Assembly: GCA_002722885.1 (NCBI GenBank)
Contig: PBNE01000003.1
Span: 74,090 to 138,089, forward strand
Direction: 5' to 3'
DNA length: 64,000 nt
From: Rhodospirillaceae bacterium
Lineage (GTDB): Bacteria; Pseudomonadota; Alphaproteobacteria; SP197
The translations under genes and the position numbers were made by a program. The notes under the pieces were generated by a model, which searched no databases, was not told the DNA's origin, and worked only from the letters and a program-made list of their open reading frames with translations. How positions within the stretch are numbered: position 1 is the first letter of the stretch; each line of letters begins with the position of its first letter. Of the stretch, positions 51,931-60,967 are shown one piece after another.

Positions 51931-53850
51931 CTACTTTTTGTGCGGCGGGGCCAGATCCAGGGCGGGATTGCGGTCGAAGAAGCCCAGCGGCTTGAGTTTG
52001 AAGCCGGTGTATTCCATCGGCATGATCGGAAAGTCCTCCAGCCGTGGCACGTGGAACACACCCATCGTGTACCAGAGCACAAGGTCTTCATCCTTGAGCG
52101 AGCGATCGGCCCTGGTCCATTTCGGCAACCCGTCCCCGCCCAGGCTCTGTGACACATAACTCCCGCAAGGAAAGTCCTCGCCTTCCGCGTAACGGGTCAC
52201 CCAGAGGTCATGTTCGACAAACCCAGCCCGGTTCATGAACGGTGACCCCGGCTGGTGCATGGGTTTGATGTTGGCTTCGGGCATCAGCTTGTAGGCCGTG
52301 TGGCCACCCATTCGGTTCGTACGACCGCGGTTGATGACCTTCCAGTAACGTCCCAACTCCGGCTTGATGTCGCGCGCTGCCTGCGTCTCGCTTTCCAGCA
52401 GTGTTTCCCTCGCGCCATGGGCGTTGCCATGGGGGTTGTCGGGACCGGTCGGCACAAGGTCGGTCTCGACCTCGACCACAGCGTTGTCCGGACCATCGAC
52501 CTCCATGTCCAGACGCACATTGAAGTAGTGCTCGTGGATCATGCCGTTGACGTTGGGCGCGACCATCCGGCCATAGGCCGTCGGCTGGCCATCCTCGACC
52601 GCGCCGCAATAGAGGATGCCGGTTAGCTTGGCCTCGAACTCGATCGTGCCGTCCTGATAGAAGTACCAGAAGATGCCGTAGTCGTAGTTGCCCACCGTGT
52701 AGAACGACGACACCACCATCCGCCGGGACCGGCGCACCACGGTCTGGTGCGTGATCGGATTGGTGTGTTTCCAGAGAACACCATAGTCCTCTTCGTGCAT
52801 GCAGATGGCGTTGGGATAACGCACCACCTCACCTCGGCCATTAGCGATGTGGACATCGAGATAGTGGATCTCGCCCAGGCAGTCGCAGCCCAGCGTCAGC
52901 GCGTTCACGCAGGTGCCGAACACGGTCTCGCCCAGATCGAACGAATGGTTGCGAAAGTAGTCGTTGGCGGTTTCCGCGTAGGGCACCACCAGTTCGGTGA
53001 GTGAAGCCCGATAGATGATCGGCCGATCGTTCTCGCCGTCGCGATAGCCGATGGTGTGAAGCACCATGCCTTCGCGTGGCGTGAAGCCGACGCGGAACGA
53101 CCAGTTTTCCCAGGTCACGAGCTGTCCGTCGACCTGGAAGCCCGGGCCGTCCGGCTGGGTGATGTCGAGACGGGCCGGCGCGGCACGAAGCTGTTCCTGT
53201 GACTCCGACTGGTAGTTGCCGGTTTCCGGCGGGATCGGTTTGACGCCGAAGTCCTCGACCCGCAGCACGGTCATCTCGTTGAGGTCGACCACCGGAACGA
53301 GGCCATCGATCGCGCGGACGTGGGGGTTGTCGCCGGGCGTTTCGACATAAAAGGCATGGGCGCGCATCAGCCGCCGCGTCGCCTCTTCCTCGGTCCCGAA
53401 GTTGCCCTGCGTCATGTTCTCGACATTGACCTTGTCGAGGTCGGTGATGCCGCGCTTCCTGAGGCCTTCGATGAAATCGGGATGGACTTTGACCAGTGCG
53501 GCCATCTCCTCAAGTTCTTCGTTAATGATCCTCGTCTGGACACCCGGAAGGTATTCCCAGGAGACGAGGCGGTCGTCATCGAGCGAGACCCGCCCTTCAA
53601 ACACCTTGCCTGCCGTACGGTCCTGCACCGCCACAAAAGCATCACGCCGGATCGCCTGACTGTCCCTGAAGGCGCGAACAACTGATTTGTCGGGCTCCTG
53701 AAGCATCACGGTTTCGAAAAGGGCACGCTCGTCGATCGAGGTCTCGCGACGGACGATCGCAATGACCTGCTCGAGCTCATCGGGCGTCAGCGGATCCAGC
53801 GGATGCTTTACCTCGATCGTGTCCGGAATCTCAATGCTCTTGGTGGCCAT
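51931..53850 (-). CDS. Copper amine oxidase (primary-amine oxidase)
   Basis: From ATG 53850 the 639-residue protein is a full copper/topaquinone amine oxidase. The cofactor tyrosine is Y389 in VGNYDYGIFWYFYQDG. Copper-ligand histidines appear in GMIHEHYFNVRLDME and MGVFHVPRLEDFPIMP. It has the upstream DLNEMTVLRVEDFGVKP and REGMVLHTIGYRDGENDRPI regions. There is no signal peptide, so it is probably cytoplasmic, as for Arthrobacter-type enzymes. It oxidises primary amines such as tyramine or phenethylamine to aldehydes, releasing NH3 and H2O2. It converges on the MbnP-like relic. Confidence 0.95.
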   Translation of the reverse strand: MATKSIEIPDTIEVKHPLDPLTPDELEQVIAIVRRETSIDERALFETVMLQEPDKSVVRAFRDSQAIRRDAFVAVQDRTAGKVFEGRVSLDDDRLVSWEYLPGVQTRIINEELEEMAALVKVHPDFIEGLRKRGITDLDKVNVENMTQGNFGTEEEATRRLMRAHAFYVETPGDNPHVRAIDGLVPVVDLNEMTVLRVEDFGVKPIPPETGNYQSESQEQLRAAPARLDITQPDGPGFQVDGQLVTWENWSFRVGFTPREGMVLHTIGYRDGENDRPIIYRASLTELVVPYAETANDYFRNHSFDLGETVFGTCVNALTLGCDCLGEIHYLDVHIANGRGEVVRYPNAICMHEEDYGVLWKHTNPITHQTVVRRSRRMVVSSFYTVGNYDYGIFWYFYQDGTIEFEAKLTGILYCGAVEDGQPTAYGRMVAPNVNGMIHEHYFNVRLDMEVDGPDNAVVEVETDLVPTGPDNPHGNAHGARETLLESETQAARDIKPELGRYWKVINRGRTNRMGGHTAYKLMPEANIKPMHQPGSPFMNRAGFVEHDLWVTRYAEGEDFPCGSYVSQSLGGDGLPKWTRADRSLKDEDLVLWYTMGVFHVPRLEDFPIMPMEYTGFKLKPLGFFDRNPALDLAPPHKK

Positions 53851-54337
53851 GGCTGTCCTCATGCGTCAGAAGCCCAGAGGTTACGCCGGAGACCGAGGGA
53901 ATCAAGAAAGCTGACCATGACTTTCCCCAAGCTTGCCCCGGGAGACGATGAGGTTGTCCGCAGGCCAGCGGCATGACCAGGTTGGCGGGAGATTCCTAGG
54001 GGAACCTAGATGTCACAGACCAACGTCGTGATCTTCCACACCGGCGACCATCGCCGCCATGTATAGATCGATGGCTCCCAGGGATCCGAAATCCGCACGG
54101 GCGTGTTCGCCCGGCGCGGTGCAGTGTTTTGCTGATGCGGGGGCTATCTAGATGCAAACGGTACCCATCTTAAATGAGGGTTCCATTTAGACGTCTGTGT
54201 TGGTGGGCTGGCGAAGAGAGCGCTCGGGATCCCGGTTCCTGATGTCTGAGGCGGCGAACCAAGAACACGTTTTCCGTAGATTTTCCGTACGAAATCTTTT
54301 TGGCCGTCGTCGAATCAAGTTAAGTGCTTGAAAAACC
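53851..54337. other. Gene-poor region left of the tRNA-Glu island
   Basis: Between the amine oxidase start and the left att repeat no intact gene is seen. It holds the possible sulfatase start relic at 54010–54135 and AT-richer DNA near 54270–54320. No promoter or repeat could be assigned with confidence. Confidence 0.45.
54010..54135 (+). pseudogene. Possible sulfatase N-terminal relic
   Basis: The frame SQTNVVIFHTGDHRRHV, TAG (54064–54066), IDGSQGSEIRTGVFARRGAV ends at TGA 54133. It resembles the start of formylglycine sulfatases (NVVxxHTDDxG … IRTPVFDRLAREGAVF), but it is short and diverged. The call rests on this likeness only. Confidence 0.3.
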
Positions 54338-54354
54338 TTGGCGACCCCTAGGGG
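54338..54354. repeat. Left direct repeat of the tRNA-Glu 3' end (att site)
   Basis: TTGGCGACCCCTAGGGG is identical to 60892–60908, the 3' end of the tRNA-Glu gene (acceptor and part of the T stem). The upstream neighbour CTTGAAAAACC is also similar to CTTGAGAAAGCT at the right copy. It is the expected mark of integration at a tRNA gene. Confidence 0.75.
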
Positions 54355-54604
54355 CTACACCGCCAAATAGAAGAAATTCAGGTTTTCTGCGGGCTAGAGC
54401 CCACCCAGTGTGTCAGAATTAGTGAGGGTTTGTACCAGTATCCTATACCAGACATCATCATTTCTAATATGGTAACGCCCTGGGTAGGAGCGTGTCGTCG
54501 ACCACTGCAGAGAGACCACGGATAGTGCCGTCATCTTCGACCAGGGCGGGCTGTTCCGTTCCCTTAGGGCCATGGCGCAACAGTCGCATGGATGTGCTTC
54601 TCTC
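54355..54604. other. Left inner end of the island, no gene seen
   Basis: About 250 nt between the left att repeat and the stop of the hydratase gene. It carries the two TTGTACCAG/TATACCAG motifs near 54430–54451 and otherwise nothing I can assign. Confidence 0.45.
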
Positions 54605-55387
54605 TCAGCCGAAGGTCACGCTAACTGAGCCCAACCCGGCAAAGTCGGCGCGGAAACGATCGCCCGGCACGGCGTCGGTAGCCCGCACGCAGGAACCAGG
54701 CAGCACGATCTGGCCCGCCTCCAGCACGACGTTGAACGCCGCCAGACGATTGGCGAGCCACGCGATCGCATTGGCAGGATGGTTCAGGATCGCGGCGCCT
54801 GCACCGGTCTCCGCAACCTCGCCATTTTTCCACATCACGGCACCGAGCGTTGGCAAGTCCATCGCGCCCGGCTGCACGGGCTGACCACCCAGCACGACCG
54901 CGGCCGAGGATGCGTTGTCGGCCACTGTGTCAAGCAAGCCTATCTTCCAGTCTCGAACGCGGCTGTCGACGATTTCGAACGACGGTAGCAAAAACTCAGT
55001 AGCCCGCATCACGTCGGCCAACGTGCAGCCAGGACCACATAGCTCGCGGCCGAGAACAAACGCGATCTCGATCTCCACCTTTGGTGCGCAAAAACGTGTG
55101 GCTGCTACGGTCGCGCCATCGTCGATGAACATGTCGTCAAGCAGATGTCCGTAGTCAGGCTCGTCGACGCCGAGAAGCTGTTGCATAACGCGTGCGGTGA
55201 GACCGACCTTGTGGCCCTTAATGGTGCGACCATCGTCGACTCGGCGATTGATGTTCAGCAGCTGTATGGCATAGGCGTCGTCCAGATCTATCTCAGGCCA
55301 GGTCGTGATCAGCGGGTCGATGGGCGCCGATGATTGCTCAGCCTCGAAGAGGGCATCAGCGGCAGACTGACGCTGTGATTCATTCAT
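54605..55387 (-). CDS. 2-Hydroxypenta-2,4-dienoate hydratase-type enzyme
   Basis: The 260-residue protein matches MhpD/BphH-type hydratases of the fumarylacetoacetase-related family: DAYAIQLLNINRRVDDGRTI, GHKVGLTARVMQQLLGVDEP, DYGHLLDDMF, PKVEIEIAFVLGRELCGPGC and SFEIVDSRVRDWKIGLLDTV. The KVG and E-x-E metal-binding residues are present. It adds water to the dienoate left after meta-cleavage and C–C hydrolysis, giving 4-hydroxy-2-oxo acids. It is the last gene of the operon, and the aldolase that should follow is missing. Confidence 0.9.
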   Translation of the reverse strand: MNESQRQSAADALFEAEQSSAPIDPLITTWPEIDLDDAYAIQLLNINRRVDDGRTIKGHKVGLTARVMQQLLGVDEPDYGHLLDDMFIDDGATVAATRFCAPKVEIEIAFVLGRELCGPGCTLADVMRATEFLLPSFEIVDSRVRDWKIGLLDTVADNASSAAVVLGGQPVQPGAMDLPTLGAVMWKNGEVAETGAGAAILNHPANAIAWLANRLAAFNVVLEAGQIVLPGSCVRATDAVPGDRFRADFAGLGSVSVTFG

Positions 55388-55402
55388 GGTCCTTCGCTTT
55401 CC

Positions 55403-55951
55403 TTAGAAGAGCACCGAAAGGCTCGGCGCCAGAATGACCGACTGGTCGAGCAGAACCCGGCGGTCCGCGATGCGCCAGTCGCCCTGCTCGTCAGCTACAA
55501 GCCGATCGTGGCGTTCGCCGGCGAAGACATGGGTCCGTGTCTCCAGACGATTGGCATAGAGGATGAAGTTGGAGCGAACTTTGCGAGAGCCATCAGACTG
55601 TGGTGCCACACGCACGTTACCGATGATACGACGTGTCCGGGTCGCCGGCTGCTCGGACCAGTCGACCTCGGATTTGAGACGCGCGACGCGGTATCCAAGC
55701 GTTGTCCGATCATCGTCAAAATGGGCGAGTTCATCGGGTGCGCCTACGGCTCGCTCGGCGTTCTTGTAATCGACATTGCGTCGGATGGGGACGACGTACG
55801 ACGTTTCGTCAGTGAAGAGGTCGAGCCAATCATCGAAAAGTCGGTCATCGAGGAGCTCGGCCTCGTGGAAGAGAAAGCTCTCGATCTGATGCTGGAGTTC
55901 AAGGGTGGCGGCCTCGCCCTCTCGCGCAGCCTGCACCTTACTCTGCGGCAT
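55403..55951 (-). CDS. Aromatic-ring-hydroxylating dioxygenase β subunit
   Basis: The 182-residue protein has the cystatin-like β-subunit fold: LQHQIESFLFHEAELLDDRL, FDDWLDLFTDETSYVVPIRR and VDWSEQPATRTRRIIGNVRV, ending DWRIADRRVLLDQSVILAPS. It lacks metal sites, as expected, and supports the α subunit in an α3β3 oxygenase. It overlaps the α-subunit gene by 14 nt. The hydratase gene follows after 15 nt. Confidence 0.95.
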   Translation of the reverse strand: MPQSKVQAAREGEAATLELQHQIESFLFHEAELLDDRLFDDWLDLFTDETSYVVPIRRNVDYKNAERAVGAPDELAHFDDDRTTLGYRVARLKSEVDWSEQPATRTRRIIGNVRVAPQSDGSRKVRSNFILYANRLETRTHVFAGERHDRLVADEQGDWRIADRRVLLDQSVILAPSLSVLF

Positions 55952-57284
55952 CGATCATAGCCTCCTCGAGATTGTGCGTTTGTGGGCGATCCCGGGACGA
56001 CATGAGGCTAAGCCAACGGTGGAAGAAGCCACGCGATGCCATCTCGCCAATCACCGGTCCCATCCGGCCGTCGCTGTCCGGAGACGAACCGTTGCGCCCA
56101 AGACTCGACTGTAGGTTCATGGGCGTCTTGCGCACCTGCGGGCTGGTGAGGTTGTTCTGGATGGTGACCCAGTTCTCGCCGTCATCCTGCTCATAGAGCC
56201 CGCTCGCACCGAAGGTGAGCACCGTAAAGCGGCGAAAGGCGTCTTTCACATCATCGGGCGCGTCTGCGTCGACAAAGACATAAGCCCACACCTCCATCTC
56301 ATCGGGCGATTTGGGATGCCACACGCGAAGCGTCGGAATGGACGAGTAGAGCCAGGAGAAGTTGGGAAAGATCGTGCCGTGGCTTTCCATGCGCCGTCGG
56401 TCGTCGCCAATGCGTTCTGTGACAGCGGCCCGTGTTTTCTCGATGTAGCGCAGCAGAACCGTCGGAAGCAGTGCGGCGTCAGACGGTCGTTCCTCTTCGG
56501 CAATCCACCATCCGAAGCCGTGCCCGTGCGGACTGCTGTACTGGTGCCCATGGATTGTGTCCTTCAGCGGATCATGGTCTAGATCATCCGCAGAGAGCAG
56601 CGAGTAGGGCGACTTGTGCGTCGTATATGTATGGTACATGTCGCTGGCAAACTGTTCGGCAGCGAACTTCCAGTTGGCTCGGATACGCCATTTGATGATT
56701 CCGCCAACAAACTCAATCCCTGCCGGAGACCGGTCGAGCGACGCGTCGAGATAGTACGCGATATCGCCCATCTCTTCGGCGAGCGGCGGCACGTCCTCAT
56801 CAAAGCAGCCGAAAATCAGACCCCTGTAACTCTCGATACGCGGTACTTGTTTAAGACCCCAGGCAGCCTTGTCGACGATACCCTCGTACTGATCCTTGAG
56901 CGGCATACCAGTGAGCCGGCCGTCGGCGGCATACGACCAGCCGTGATACTTGCATGTGAAGGCCCGAGCGTTGCCCTCATCCTCGCGGCAGACGCGCATG
57001 CCGCGATGCCGACACATGTTGAGGAACGCCTTCACCGAGCCGTCCCGCTGGCGCACGACGATGACCGGATCAAGGCCCATATAGGTCGTCACATAGTCGC
57101 CGGCCTTCGGAAGCTGGCTGTCATGGGCAAGAAACAGCCAGCTTCGACCAAAGATACGCTCCATTTCCACGTCGAAAATGGCTTGGTCGGTGTAGACCTC
57201 AGGACCGATCAAACCGTGTTCGGCGTCAACCAAGCGCTGCAGGTCAGGTGTCATTTCGTCCGCATGCTGTGCTCGGGGTGTCAT
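55938..57284 (-). CDS. Aromatic-ring-hydroxylating dioxygenase α subunit
   Basis: The 448-residue protein has a Rieske cluster CRH (C91, H93) and CKYH (C111, H114) and a mononuclear iron site in AAEQFASDMYHTYTTH (H218, H223). IESYRGLIFGCFDEDVPPL and RANWKFAAEQFASDMYHTY are typical of biphenyl/benzene-type dioxygenases. It would make a cis-dihydrodiol from an aromatic substrate with O2. The ferredoxin and reductase that supply electrons are not encoded in the island, so they would have to come from elsewhere. It adjoins the extradiol dioxygenase gene with a 1-nt gap. Confidence 0.95.
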   Translation of the reverse strand: MTPRAQHADEMTPDLQRLVDAEHGLIGPEVYTDQAIFDVEMERIFGRSWLFLAHDSQLPKAGDYVTTYMGLDPVIVVRQRDGSVKAFLNMCRHRGMRVCREDEGNARAFTCKYHGWSYAADGRLTGMPLKDQYEGIVDKAAWGLKQVPRIESYRGLIFGCFDEDVPPLAEEMGDIAYYLDASLDRSPAGIEFVGGIIKWRIRANWKFAAEQFASDMYHTYTTHKSPYSLLSADDLDHDPLKDTIHGHQYSSPHGHGFGWWIAEEERPSDAALLPTVLLRYIEKTRAAVTERIGDDRRRMESHGTIFPNFSWLYSSIPTLRVWHPKSPDEMEVWAYVFVDADAPDDVKDAFRRFTVLTFGASGLYEQDDGENWVTIQNNLTSPQVRKTPMNLQSSLGRNGSSPDSDGRMGPVIGEMASRGFFHRWLSLMSSRDRPQTHNLEEAMIDAAE

Positions 57285-57285
57285 G

Positions 57286-58152
57286 TCAGCTCTCCAAAGG
57301 TCGTTGGTGTCCCCAAACGCTTTCGGCTGTCATATCGGTGACTTCCCAACTCGCCTCGTCTACCTGCAGGCCGCCCCAACCTAGTTCGACGGCAAAATCG
57401 GAGGGCGATTGGGCATAGAAGGAAAACATGCGGTCATTGGTATGGCGGCCCAGCTCGTAGGCGATCGGTGCCTTCCCCGCGCGGCAAGCGTCGCGGGCAA
57501 GGCCAACACCGTCCATGTCGTCGACCTCGACCATGAGATGATCGAACCCGACGTCGAGTCCGAGCTTGGCGTCTGCGTTACCAATAGCAATCGCGTGCTC
57601 GCGCGGCCCACAACGATAGAAGTGTACGTCGCCGCCAGCGAAACGATCGCTGAGACGAAACCCAAGAGCCTCGTAGAGCTCACACGTTTCGGTGTAGCGC
57701 TGCGCGACGACAAAGACATGCCCCATGCCCAGGTCACCGGTGACGAATCCGTGGCCGTGGCCGCAGCGCGTGGGCAGTGGACCCCGCTCTCGGCCATGGA
57801 AAATCTCAACCGGCTGCCCTCCTGGGTCGCTGAAGGTAATCATGCCGGCCACACCGCGAGAGGCACTGAGTTCGTCTCCGTCATGATAACTGACGTCCAG
57901 GCCTCGATTTTCTACAACAATCGCCGCGGCCTTTAGGCCGTCTGGCGTCGCAGCTTCCCAGCCGATCGCTGCGACGCGCTCAGTTTTTCCGCTTTCAACC
58001 TTCAGGCGCCAGACGTGATCGTCCATACGCAAGTGCAGACAACCGTTCTCGCCCTCGATTACTTCCATCCCGAGAACTTCGGACCCAAAGCCGCGCCACT
58101 CGGCGATGCGTTGGGTCTCGAGGACGAGATATCCCAATCCGGTTACATTCAT
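57286..58152 (-). CDS. Extradiol (meta-cleavage) ring dioxygenase, BphC-like
   Basis: The 288-residue two-domain VOC protein starts NVTGLGYLVLETQRIAEWRG. It has the iron ligands H145 (MGHVFVVAQ), H205 (GFDHLMVEVDD) and E256 (FAVELGWGG), the class-I extradiol pattern of 2,3-dihydroxybiphenyl 1,2-dioxygenase and HsaC. It opens a catechol ring next to the hydroxyls. The start overlaps the end of the dehydrogenase gene by 4 nt. Confidence 0.93.
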   Translation of the reverse strand: MNVTGLGYLVLETQRIAEWRGFGSEVLGMEVIEGENGCLHLRMDDHVWRLKVESGKTERVAAIGWEAATPDGLKAAAIVVENRGLDVSYHDGDELSASRGVAGMITFSDPGGQPVEIFHGRERGPLPTRCGHGHGFVTGDLGMGHVFVVAQRYTETCELYEALGFRLSDRFAGGDVHFYRCGPREHAIAIGNADAKLGLDVGFDHLMVEVDDMDGVGLARDACRAGKAPIAYELGRHTNDRMFSFYAQSPSDFAVELGWGGLQVDEASWEVTDMTAESVWGHQRPLES

Positions 58153-58973
58153 GGCTGTCTCCCATTGGCGTTAACGGCTGCAGCGGCATCGCGTCCCCAG
58201 ACGCCTGCGCCCGCATCGCACGCATGGATCGAGCCTGTCACGACGCTGCCGTCTCGCCGCGATGCGAGCAGTACATAGTGCCCAGCATAGTCCTCTGGCC
58301 GCGGCGCGATAACGAGCGGCGACCAGTTGCGCATGATGCCGTCAACATCCTGCGCGCCATAGGAGGTCGACTCCAGGTCGAATGCCGCCGGTCCGCGAAG
58401 ATCTGTGGCCATGCCGGAAGGTGCTACCCCGTTGACGCGCACCTCAGGTGCCAATTCCCAGGCAAGCTGGCGCACCAAACCGACAAGGGCGTGTTTGGTG
58501 GCCGTGTACAGCGCGCCCCCGCCACCCGGATAGAAGGCCGCATTCGACAGCGTGAAGAGCAACGTGCCGCGAGTGGCGCGCAGGTCGTTGAGAGCAGCTC
58601 GCGCCCCCAAAAGGCCGGCCTTTACGTTTACACCGAAGAGCTGATCAAAGGCCGGACCGATCGTCTCAGGCGCCATCTTCGCGATGCCGGTGTCGAAGTC
58701 CCAGAGACCGGCATTCGCGATAAAGCAGTCCAGCGCACCGAAACGCTCCACCGTGGCGGCGACCGCTGAGGCGTTATCATCGTAATGCGTTGCGTCGCCT
58801 GTTGTGACTGAAATGTCGTCGCCGAAGTCGAACTGCAACGCCGCTGACTTCTCCTTAGAGATCTCCAGTACGCCAACGCGGGCGCCTTCCTCGAGAAAAC
58901 GCGCGACGATGGCACGGCCGAGGCCAGAACCTCCACCGGTCACCACGGTGACTTGTCCGTCAAGGGCGCCCAT
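58149..58973 (-). CDS. cis-Dihydrodiol dehydrogenase (SDR, BphB-like)
   Basis: The 274-residue SDR starts ALDGQVTVVTGGGSGLGRAI, with FGALDCFIANAGLWDFDTGI, FTLSNAAFYPGGGGALYTAT and KHALVGLVRQLAWELAPEVR (YxxxK) followed by VNGVAPSGMATDLRGP, close to BphB/BnzE-type dehydrogenases. It oxidises the cis-dihydrodiol to a catechol with NAD. It sits 6 nt after the hydrolase gene and overlaps the extradiol gene, in pathway order. Confidence 0.92.
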   Translation of the reverse strand: MGALDGQVTVVTGGGSGLGRAIVARFLEEGARVGVLEISKEKSAALQFDFGDDISVTTGDATHYDDNASAVAATVERFGALDCFIANAGLWDFDTGIAKMAPETIGPAFDQLFGVNVKAGLLGARAALNDLRATRGTLLFTLSNAAFYPGGGGALYTATKHALVGLVRQLAWELAPEVRVNGVAPSGMATDLRGPAAFDLESTSYGAQDVDGIMRNWSPLVIAPRPEDYAGHYVLLASRRDGSVVTGSIHACDAGAGVWGRDAAAAVNANGRQP

Positions 58974-58979
58974 CGGCGA

Positions 58980-59921
58980 TCACCTGCCACCTTTGATGAA
59001 GTCGATGAGCACCTGATCGTGCTCCTCAGGTTTTTCCCACTGGGGCCAATGGGCCGCATCTTCCATCAGGTAGAACTTGCAGCCCGGGATGGCCGACGCG
59101 AAGTACTCGCCCAGATCCGGGCCCTCGCCGGGGTTGTGCTCGGTCCAGAACACCAAGCCCTCCGGCTCGAAGTGCTTGAGGTCGCTCTCGACCCACTGAG
59201 GATCGAGATCCCAGGGATCGTCCTTGCCCATGTCGACACTGAAGAACTGACGCATCGCGGCGTTGATATCGGGATCCTGGTAAAGCCGCACCCGGATTTC
59301 CGCCATCTCATCAGTCATGCGGTCGGGCGAGACCACCAGCCACTCGAGCCGCTTTCGCATGATTTCGAAGGTCGGTTTGGTGATCGCCTGATAGGACAGC
59401 GCAGCAAGTTCGCTGTGATCGGACTCAGGCGTCACGAAGTCGGTCTTATCGAGCTTCACGCGGCCTACCCCGGTGTTCATGATCATCTTGCCGGAGCGTT
59501 CCGGATAGCGCAGGCCGAACTCGAAGGCGATCTGGCCGCCCATGGATTCGCCTTCGATATGTGCGCGCTCGAAGCCATAAGCGTCCATGAGGTCGACAAC
59601 CGCATCGACTTGGAGGTCGTGGCGTTTCTTTGCGTCATAAGGCTCTTTTGAGCTGTAGCCGTGATAGAGCGCGTCGATCGCCAGAACATGAAAATGTTGG
59701 CCAAGGTTGGCCATGTTGCGGGCAAACGTCTCAGCATGGCCGCCGACGCCGTGGATCAGAATGAGCGGTTCGCCGGACCCGCACTCGATGACGCGGTGTT
59801 GCCAGCGCGGCCCCTTGACCATGCGCGTTTGGCAACCCAGAAGCTCCACAGCGATCGTGCTCCACCGATCGAGAGGCTGGCAGTCGACGGTGCGTGACAG
59901 ACTGAAATGCGGTGTGCCCAT
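58980..59921 (-). CDS. α/β-hydrolase, meta-cleavage-product hydrolase-like
   Basis: From ATG 59921, preceded by GGGGAGA, the 313-residue protein has LILIHGVGGHAETFARNM (oxyanion region), the nucleophile elbow GESMGG (S126) and the C-terminal histidine in EDAAHWPQWEKPEEHD. This is the BphD/MhpC/HsaD-type layout, splitting the ring-opened dienone into a dienoate and a carboxylic acid. It is the first gene of the operon and is divergent from tetR. An earlier start (59969) would run into the operator region. Confidence 0.88.
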   Translation of the reverse strand: MGTPHFSLSRTVDCQPLDRWSTIAVELLGCQTRMVKGPRWQHRVIECGSGEPLILIHGVGGHAETFARNMANLGQHFHVLAIDALYHGYSSKEPYDAKKRHDLQVDAVVDLMDAYGFERAHIEGESMGGQIAFEFGLRYPERSGKMIMNTGVGRVKLDKTDFVTPESDHSELAALSYQAITKPTFEIMRKRLEWLVVSPDRMTDEMAEIRVRLYQDPDINAAMRQFFSVDMGKDDPWDLDPQWVESDLKHFEPEGLVFWTEHNPGEGPDLGEYFASAIPGCKFYLMEDAAHWPQWEKPEEHDQVLIDFIKGGR

Positions 59922-59978
59922 GGTGGCGTCTCCCCTTTGGCCAAATTGGTTAGGGAGTCTTAGCGGCATTTAATAATA

Positions 59979-60005
59979 AAGCCAATATTCATTTTAATAT
60001 GGCTT
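59979..60005. promoter_or_regulatory. Inverted-repeat operator candidate for the TetR regulator
   Basis: AAGCCAATATT…AATATGGCTT forms an imperfect inverted repeat (one-base bulge) in the AT-rich 147-bp gap between the catabolic operon and the divergent tetR. Its size and place suit a TetR-type operator controlling both directions. Confidence 0.5.
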
Positions 60006-60068
60006 GGGTCTGCCGTTTGTAGGCTGCGCGTGCTATGCGTCTCGAACCTCCAAGGACGGTGACAGGAT

Positions 60069-60722
60069 ATGTGTGTTACGAAGATACGGACAGAGAGACT
60101 GATCGACCTTGACCAGCGGGGGGCACCGCAGCAGAAGCGTGCTCGCGAGGCGTTCGAGCGCATTTTGGCCGCGACCACGGACCTAATCGACGAGATCGGC
60201 ATCGACCGCATCACGACCATCAACGTGGCCGAGCGCGCCGGCGTCAACGTCAGCTCTCTCTATCGCTACTTTCCGAACAAATACGCTCTTGTGCAGTACT
60301 TGGCACGCCGGCTGGGCGAACGACAAAACGTCGCCGTCAATGCCTATTTGGAAACGGTTAACCCCGAGCGTCCGTGGCAGGAGGTCCTCGACGGCATCGT
60401 TGATGCGATGGTGGACGTGAGCTGCAAAGAGCGTGGCGCGGTGCCGTTGCAACGCGCACTTCTCGCTGTGCCGGAACTCCGCGAGGAGTATCGTCGCTCC
60501 GCCGAGGACGTAGGCACCAATCTGGAAAAGTTCCTGCAACGCTGGGGCGTCGACCTGCCCAGGGACCGGATCAACCTCATCATCATGTCCATGGGCGAGT
60601 GTTCGGCAGCCATGCTTGATCTCGCCGTTTCAAAAGGTGCGTCCTACAACAGGGATGTGGTGAGAGAGCTAAAACGCGTCTTCCGCGGGTATTTGGAGAC
60701 TTATCTCCATACAGACAACTGA
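60069..60722 (+). CDS. TetR-family transcriptional regulator
   Basis: The 217-residue protein has an N-terminal helix-turn-helix: ILAATTDLIDEIGIDRITTI, VAERAGVNVSSLYRYFPNKY, followed by a helical ligand domain. The preceding basic stretch (RGAPQQKRAREAFERI) is also typical. It diverges from the aromatic operon and probably represses it until a pathway intermediate binds. It is the last gene before the right end of the island. Confidence 0.92.
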   Translation: MCVTKIRTERLIDLDQRGAPQQKRAREAFERILAATTDLIDEIGIDRITTINVAERAGVNVSSLYRYFPNKYALVQYLARRLGERQNVAVNAYLETVNPERPWQEVLDGIVDAMVDVSCKERGAVPLQRALLAVPELREEYRRSAEDVGTNLEKFLQRWGVDLPRDRINLIIMSMGECSAAMLDLAVSKGASYNRDVVRELKRVFRGYLETYLHTDN

Positions 60723-60891
60723 GCCCGAAACGCAGACATAACTGTTACGCAAGCGGTCAACTTTACTGCTGTTAACCCCAATCAAGTTAATAGGCATCGC
60801 GACCAACTTTGTACCACCCCTTGTACCAGAAGGGGGCTCTGAACATCACAGAAGTCCTAAGAGTAAGGCGTATCAACGCCTTGAGAAAGCT
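60723..60891. other. Right inner end of the island
   Basis: Between tetR and tRNA-Glu there are two TTGTACCA motifs (60808–60816, 60821–60829) and no coding sequence. They mirror those at the left end of the island. Confidence 0.5.
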
Positions 60892-60908
60892 TTGGCGACC
60901 CCTAGGGG
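60892..60908. repeat. Right direct repeat (att) within tRNA-Glu 3' end
   Basis: TTGGCGACCCCTAGGGG overlaps the 3' 16 nt of the tRNA-Glu gene, including the encoded CCA, and matches 54338–54354 exactly. Confidence 0.75.
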
Positions 60909-60967
60909 AATCGAACCCCTGTCTCAACCGTGAAAGGGTTGTGTCCTAACCTCTAGACGAAGGGGTC
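60893..60967 (-). tRNA. tRNA-Glu (anticodon TTC), CCA encoded
   Basis: On the minus strand GACCCCT pairs with AGGGGTC as acceptor stem, followed by discriminator G and encoded CCA. The D-arm region CGTCTAGAGGTTAGGAC, the anticodon arm ACCCTTTCACGGT with anticodon TTC (complement of 60932–60934) and the T-arm CAGGGGTTCGATTCCCCT are complete. It is the integration site of the adjacent island, and its 3' end is intact. Confidence 0.95.

Follow-up and report, generated by a model that had tools for sequence, protein, structure and literature searches.

A small aromatic-catabolism island at tRNA-Glu that probably derives from a DUF6538-type integrative element and lacks an integrase gene

Aromatic catabolic genes are well-known cargo of integrative elements, among them the bph/nah ICEs, which often occupy tRNA genes (e.g. 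PMC6563109, PMC9960961). These ICEs span tens of kilobases and combine their cargo with conjugation genes and an integrase. Cis-mobilizable elements (CIMEs), described as decayed ICEs or IMEs, retain attL and attR but have lost the genes for integration and transfer, and they may lie in tandem at the 3' end of a tRNA gene (PMC5704250).

The island reported here lies in a 64,000-nt window (the whole stretch of DNA that was analysed) from a Rhodospirillaceae bacterium whose draft genome (G000) comprises 3.71 Mb in 23 contigs, with 8.7% estimated contamination. Relative to the bph/nah ICEs it is short, at 6.5 kb, and contains cargo only. It matches the structural part of the CIME definition in that attL and attR are present and integration and transfer genes are absent; it differs in that the evidence speaks to an integrase-type ancestor alone and cis-mobilization is putative. 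The former presence of an integrase is something we infer, whereas a conjugative or mobilizable past is not seen here. Because the CIME definition fits structurally and catabolic cargo on integrative elements is known, the island is a new, very small case of an already known kind, namely a tRNA-anchored mobile island that is grounded or relies on borrowed machinery. We propose that it is best read as an integrative element that depended on a DUF6538 tyrosine integrase and has lost the gene for it, and from sequence comparison we place the probability of this reading at roughly 0.8. The features of the locus and of two complete counterparts are listed in Table 1.

Table 1. Features of the tRNA-Glu island, its flank and two integrase-bearing counterparts (window positions unless a genome and contig are named)
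Feature	Position	Strand	Basis or remark
tRNA-Glu (TTC), intact; integration target is its 3' end at 60893	60893..60967	-	ARAGORN; recJ-tRNA-Glu adjacency kept in relatives
Proximal att core copy (tRNA 3' end + 1 nt)	60892..60908	-	Exact 17-bp repeat
Proximal candidate arm-type site 1 (TGGTACAA on minus strand), 64 nt from tRNA end	60821..60828	-	Same position in G051, G009 (65 nt)
Proximal candidate arm-type site 2, 12-bp period	60809..60816	-	Tandem pairs at 12-13 bp precede DUF6538 integrases
Expected integrase start position, no integrase sequence left	60723..60808	-	Layout in G009, G292, G051
TetR-family regulator, divergent from operon	60069..60722	+	PF00440, PF17918
Candidate TetR operator, imperfect inverted repeat AAGCCAATATT-CATTTT-AATATGGCTT, between tetR and operon	59979..60005	.	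Sequence; putative function
Alpha/beta hydrolase (C-C bond hydrolase, HsaD/BphD-like)	58980..59921	-	
cis-Dihydrodiol dehydrogenase (HcaB/BphB-like SDR)	58149..58973	-	PRK06200 above cut-off; HcaB 347 bits, below cut-off
Extradiol dioxygenase (BphC-like)	57286..58152	-	TIGR03213 247 bits, below cut-off; BphC structures
Rieske oxygenase alpha subunit (biphenyl/3-phenylpropionate dioxygenase group)	55938..57284	-	
Rieske oxygenase beta subunit	55403..55951	-	PRK10069 above cut-off
2-Hydroxydienoate hydratase (HpaH/DmpE-like)	54605..55387	-	TIGR02312 301 bits, below cut-off
Degenerate second distal arm (CTATACCA on +), 13-bp period, 6/8 bases	54443..54450	-	Sequence
Distal candidate arm-type site, 75 nt from distal core	54430..54437	-	Distal arms 65 nt in G051, 63 nt in G251
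Distal att core copy (displaced tRNA 3' end)	54338..54354	-	Exact 17-bp repeat
Sequence left of 54338: CCAAGGTTTTTCAAGCAC			
Tandem motif GTACGGAAAATCTACGGAAAA just outside distal core	54270..54290	-	Same spacing as tRNA-Glu downstream flank of G010
Complete DUF6538 island, tRNA-Ser, 5.0 kb	G051:C13:451090-456104		Last 17 nt of tRNA recur 5.0 kb away
Complete DUF6538 island, tRNA-Ser, 29.4 kb	G251:C124:308-29697		Same plan as G051

The boundaries of the island are drawn by the 17-mer TTGGCGACCCCTAGGGG, which occurs exactly at 54338-54354 and 60892-60908. The first-pass annotation had described this copy of the tRNA-Glu 3' end and asked whether the repeat recurs elsewhere; the pair holds and is unique, with only two copies in the draft genome (≤1 mismatch) and no third in the window (≤3 mismatches), where a given 17-mer would be expected by chance about 1e-6 times in 6.5 kb. 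The locus thus has the arrangement by which tRNA islands are recognized: an intact tRNA has been restored, and its displaced 3' fragment bounds the insert as a direct repeat. Base composition changes modestly across these boundaries (GC 0.595 in the island vs 0.636 in the left and 0.654 in the right flank), a weak contrast. Integration at tRNA-Glu, as originally suggested, is supported by the repeat, by arm-type sites at both ends and by complete relatives. A small integrative element probably entered the chromosome by tyrosine-integrase recombination targeted to the tRNA-Glu 3' end, with the 17-bp core as recombination site; judging from the repeat and the complete relatives, the incoming element would have rebuilt the tRNA end, and the displaced copy would mark the far boundary.

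Inside the core copies lie candidate arm-type sites. The motif TTGTACCA occurs four times in the window vs 0.43 expected, and three of these copies fall within 85 bp of a repeat copy, as a tandem pair (60809/60821) and a single site (54430). The window therefore has tandem TGGTACA-type arms near its tRNA-proximal end and a further distal arm, all in one orientation. Motif pairs had been claimed inside both ends; the proximal tandem pair is exact, but CTATACCA, the second distal copy, is degenerate, so that the left "pair" consists of one exact and one weak site. The accompanying suggestion that these motifs act like integrase arms gained independent backing, since a tandem pair at equal distance from a tRNA precedes the N-termini of DUF6538 integrases elsewhere.

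Among ten genomes of the genus, one other tandem TTGTACCA pair was found (G009:C146:338-358). Its distance from the 3' end of a tRNA-Met is 65 nt, and an integrase-like reading frame that encodes a DUF6538 domain begins within it or directly after it. Likewise, in a class-wide sample, a tandem TTGTACCA pair stands before the DUF6538 N-terminus of G292. The truncated G009 N-terminus was too narrow as a class-wide protein query (one match), and 68 DUF6538 loci were collected with family PF20172 instead; a phmmer search with the G292 protein returned no match because that gene is itself a remnant. On the coding strand, 20-110 nt upstream of DUF6538, TGGTACA (the reverse complement of TGTACCA) is present at 7 of the 68 loci (11 copies, vs 0.38 expected) and at 1 of 66 in the control interval. 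Most of the TGGTACA-bearing integrase loci adjoin a tRNA (at least seven loci in the class). Exact tandem 7-mers 10-16 nt apart, mostly 12-13, are found at 23/68 DUF6538 loci vs 10/66 controls. Other loci feature related words such as TGGTAGA, TAGTACA and TGTTACA, and the arm word is not universal in DUF6538 integrases. In an alignment of ten of the integrases, the R, K, HxxR and Y residues typical of tyrosine recombinases are kept, and two of the ten are labelled integrases in PHROGs. Separately, a scan of IMG/VR for the paired TTGTACCA pattern returned 120 stretches whose nearby genes are unrelated phage genes, and was uninformative on integrases.

Through this association the type of integrase missing from the window could be named. 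The element was presumably moved by an integrase whose N-terminal DUF6538 domain would recognize TGGTACA-type arm sites; the assignment draws on the sequence, spacing and position of the arms by comparison, and arm binding is predicted. Our literature search found no paper naming DUF6538, and the link between these integrases and TGGTACA-type tandem arms appears to be undescribed in the literature searched. Such arms offer a sequence handle on island ends that would escape finders relying on the integrase, and arm sites alone can indicate which integrase family delivered an island.

Two complete islands feature the same plan with the integrase in place. In G051, a TGGTACA arm pair starts 65 nt after tRNA-Ser and is followed by the integrase start, and 65 nt separate the distal arm from the core copy; the integrase is a 494-aa DUF6538 protein that PF00589 barely detects (16.7 bits), and the other genes of the island have no Pfam match. 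In G251, the proximal arms (one exact, one weak) stand 74 nt from the tRNA and the distal pair 63 nt from the core. The cargo of the G251 island is defence-like: DEAD-box and SNF2 helicases, an Eco57I-type methylase, an HNH protein, a RelA/SpoT-domain protein and a reverse transcriptase. Both islands resemble the window in their 17-nt core repeat of the tRNA end and in TGGTACA-type arms at 63-75 nt from both ends in direct orientation; unlike the window, they retain the integrase, sit at tRNA-Ser and harbor unassigned or defence-like cargo. The similarity of the spacings (64 nt proximal and 75 nt distal in the window) suggests that the window contains the two ends of such an element, with the integrase missing.

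The absence of a recombinase, noted in the first-pass annotation, is confirmed: none is encoded between the 17-bp copies, the whole window holds no DUF6538 or other integrase match, and no integrase remnant is left in the 86 nt that separate the proximal arms from the tetR stop codon. The integrase gene, which would be expected to begin right behind the proximal pair, has probably been deleted, which would leave attL, attR, the arms and a cargo of seven genes, a putative TetR-controlled operon for ring hydroxylation and meta-cleavage. With these parts kept and the integrase gone, the locus would be a CIME-like grounded island, mobile only if a matching integrase were supplied. It would also illustrate how loss of the integrase can leave a metabolic operon fixed at a tRNA site.

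Such an integrase could in principle reside elsewhere in the same cell. A PF00589 search of the source genome, of the kind the first-pass annotation had called for, recovered two full-length genes, both XerC/XerD-like, and two broken pieces. Because PF00589 can miss this family, as its score for the G051 integrase illustrates, the genome was searched again with PF20172 and the ten-sequence alignment; these matched only two short fragments (C13:253692 and C8:170051) and no intact integrase, so no helper integrase is visible in the draft assembly. One decayed fragment (G000:C8:170051-170158) lies beside a tRNA-Leu after a TGACGTAC tandem pair, and another (G000:C15:96196) is near a tRNA-Ser.

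These searches bear on whether the island was ever complete. It could be a satellite, naturally devoid of an integrase and moved in trans by the DUF6538 integrase of another element in the same cell; exact arms and core are kept at both ends, every cargo gene is intact, and the class does contain integrases with this arm word. However, the matching intact integrase was not found in the island's own genome, neither a second copy of the island nor an integrase-less unit of arms and core with other cargo has come to light, and the arms sit where an integrase start is expected, which fits loss. We consider the satellite unlikely, and equally doubtful is its broader form, in which catabolic operons would travel as minimal tRNA cassettes of core and arms that borrow a DUF6538 integrase in trans as a metabolic satellite system. 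The island had been thought either stripped down or mobilised in trans; with only XerC/D-like genes and decayed pieces in its genome, the former is favoured, and mobilisation in trans is possible but unsupported.

On the upstream side of tRNA-Glu, adjacency to recJ is conserved among relatives; the sequence downstream is different in most, which marks the site as a hotspot. The operon is absent from tRNA-Glu in 13 relatives, most of which differ in downstream sequence, and different blocks of the window's left half adjoin the tRNA-Glu of G003, G008 and G014. Overall, the whole stretch left of the tRNA seems to be accessory. None of the 16 other genomes searched (10 of the genus or family and 6 of the class) has the copper amine oxidase gene found directly left of the island (51931-53862).

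In relatives, the region left of the tRNA is variable across more than 20 kb, and neighbouring genes, the amine oxidase among them, likewise belong to the accessory genome. Homologous exchange could alternatively have brought the operon into this variable region, and the second 17-bp copy would then be a duplicate of the tRNA end that arose by chance or by recombination. The layout of the arms already contradicts this origin: they stand at both ends with the spacing of integrase-bearing islands. The repeat is, moreover, unique, and the flank beyond it matches G010. We regard homologous exchange as very improbable and retain integration by a DUF6538-type element.

That flank served as a proxy for the empty-site comparison proposed at the outset. 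Among the relatives compared, neither a clean empty tRNA-Glu site nor the same island with an integrase was found in a close relative; a 21-nt stretch in G010, a family-mate from another genus, stands in for one. There, GTACGGAACATCTGCGGAAAA lies 48 nt beyond tRNA-Glu, the same offset as GTACGGAAAATCTACGGAAAA beyond the distal core. The two agree at 19 of 21 bases (E = 0.045 against a small database, with the equal position as added support), and the tandem motif in this form occurs only in the window and G010 within 3.6 Mb of sequence, with a few looser look-alikes in Acinetobacter loci. The match at equal spacing supports the view that the sequence left of 54338 once directly followed tRNA-Glu.

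The same motif hints at repeated use of the site, with either an older element or native flank behind the distal core. Because it is itself tandem and at an arm-like distance, GTACGGAAAATCTACGGAAAA could stem from an older element, in which case the site would be a tandem array built by accretion; a search of IMG/VR for the motif found nothing. The repeat-bounded unit would then be the last of several elements at tRNA-Glu and its left neighbour part of a larger composite island, as the motif's recurrence after tRNA-Glu in G010 and the varied blocks in G003, G008 and G014 could suggest. The window, however, contains no further core copy (≤3 mismatches) and no integrase remnant left of 54338. 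We hold accretion as a tentative prospect, somewhat short of even odds, that is compatible with the loss of a DUF6538 integrase and not opposed to it.

Finally, the cargo described in the first-pass annotation is present in full: six codirectional catabolic genes and a divergent tetR lie between the 17-bp copies, each of them full-length and bounded by a proper start and stop codon. The closest enzyme families for the alpha and beta subunits, the dehydrogenase and the extradiol enzyme are those of the hca (3-phenylpropionate) and bph (biphenyl) systems. Relative to these, the window enzymes mostly score below curated equivalog cut-offs, the gene order is not matched among the best 30 of 82 loci compared, and ferredoxin, reductase and aldolase genes are absent from the element, which makes it a module rather than a complete pathway, as first surmised. 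Biphenyl/phenylpropionate is the closest candidate substrate group, at a level where most family matches fall below those cut-offs. The operon would carry an aromatic ring through dioxygenation, dehydrogenation, extradiol cleavage, C-C hydrolysis and hydration, served by a host ferredoxin and reductase and by a host aldolase or other downstream enzymes. For 4-hydroxy-2-oxovalerate aldolase (TIGR03217), the source genome holds no match over the cut-off (best 59 of 286 bits), so the module would have to lean on other host enzymes or end at the 4-hydroxy-2-oxo acid.

Island DNA has no match among phages and only short, gene-level matches among plasmids. The gene order of the window (hydrolase-dehydrogenase-extradiol-alpha-beta-hydratase) is absent among the best 30 of 82 homologous loci compared. 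The nearest relatives of the alpha subunit, 49-52% identical, occur in two congeners, in Immundisolibacter-type MAGs and in Cycloclasticus. The 3.7-Mb source genome has at least 27 Rieske-type oxygenase loci, and most relatives in the genus have similar numbers.
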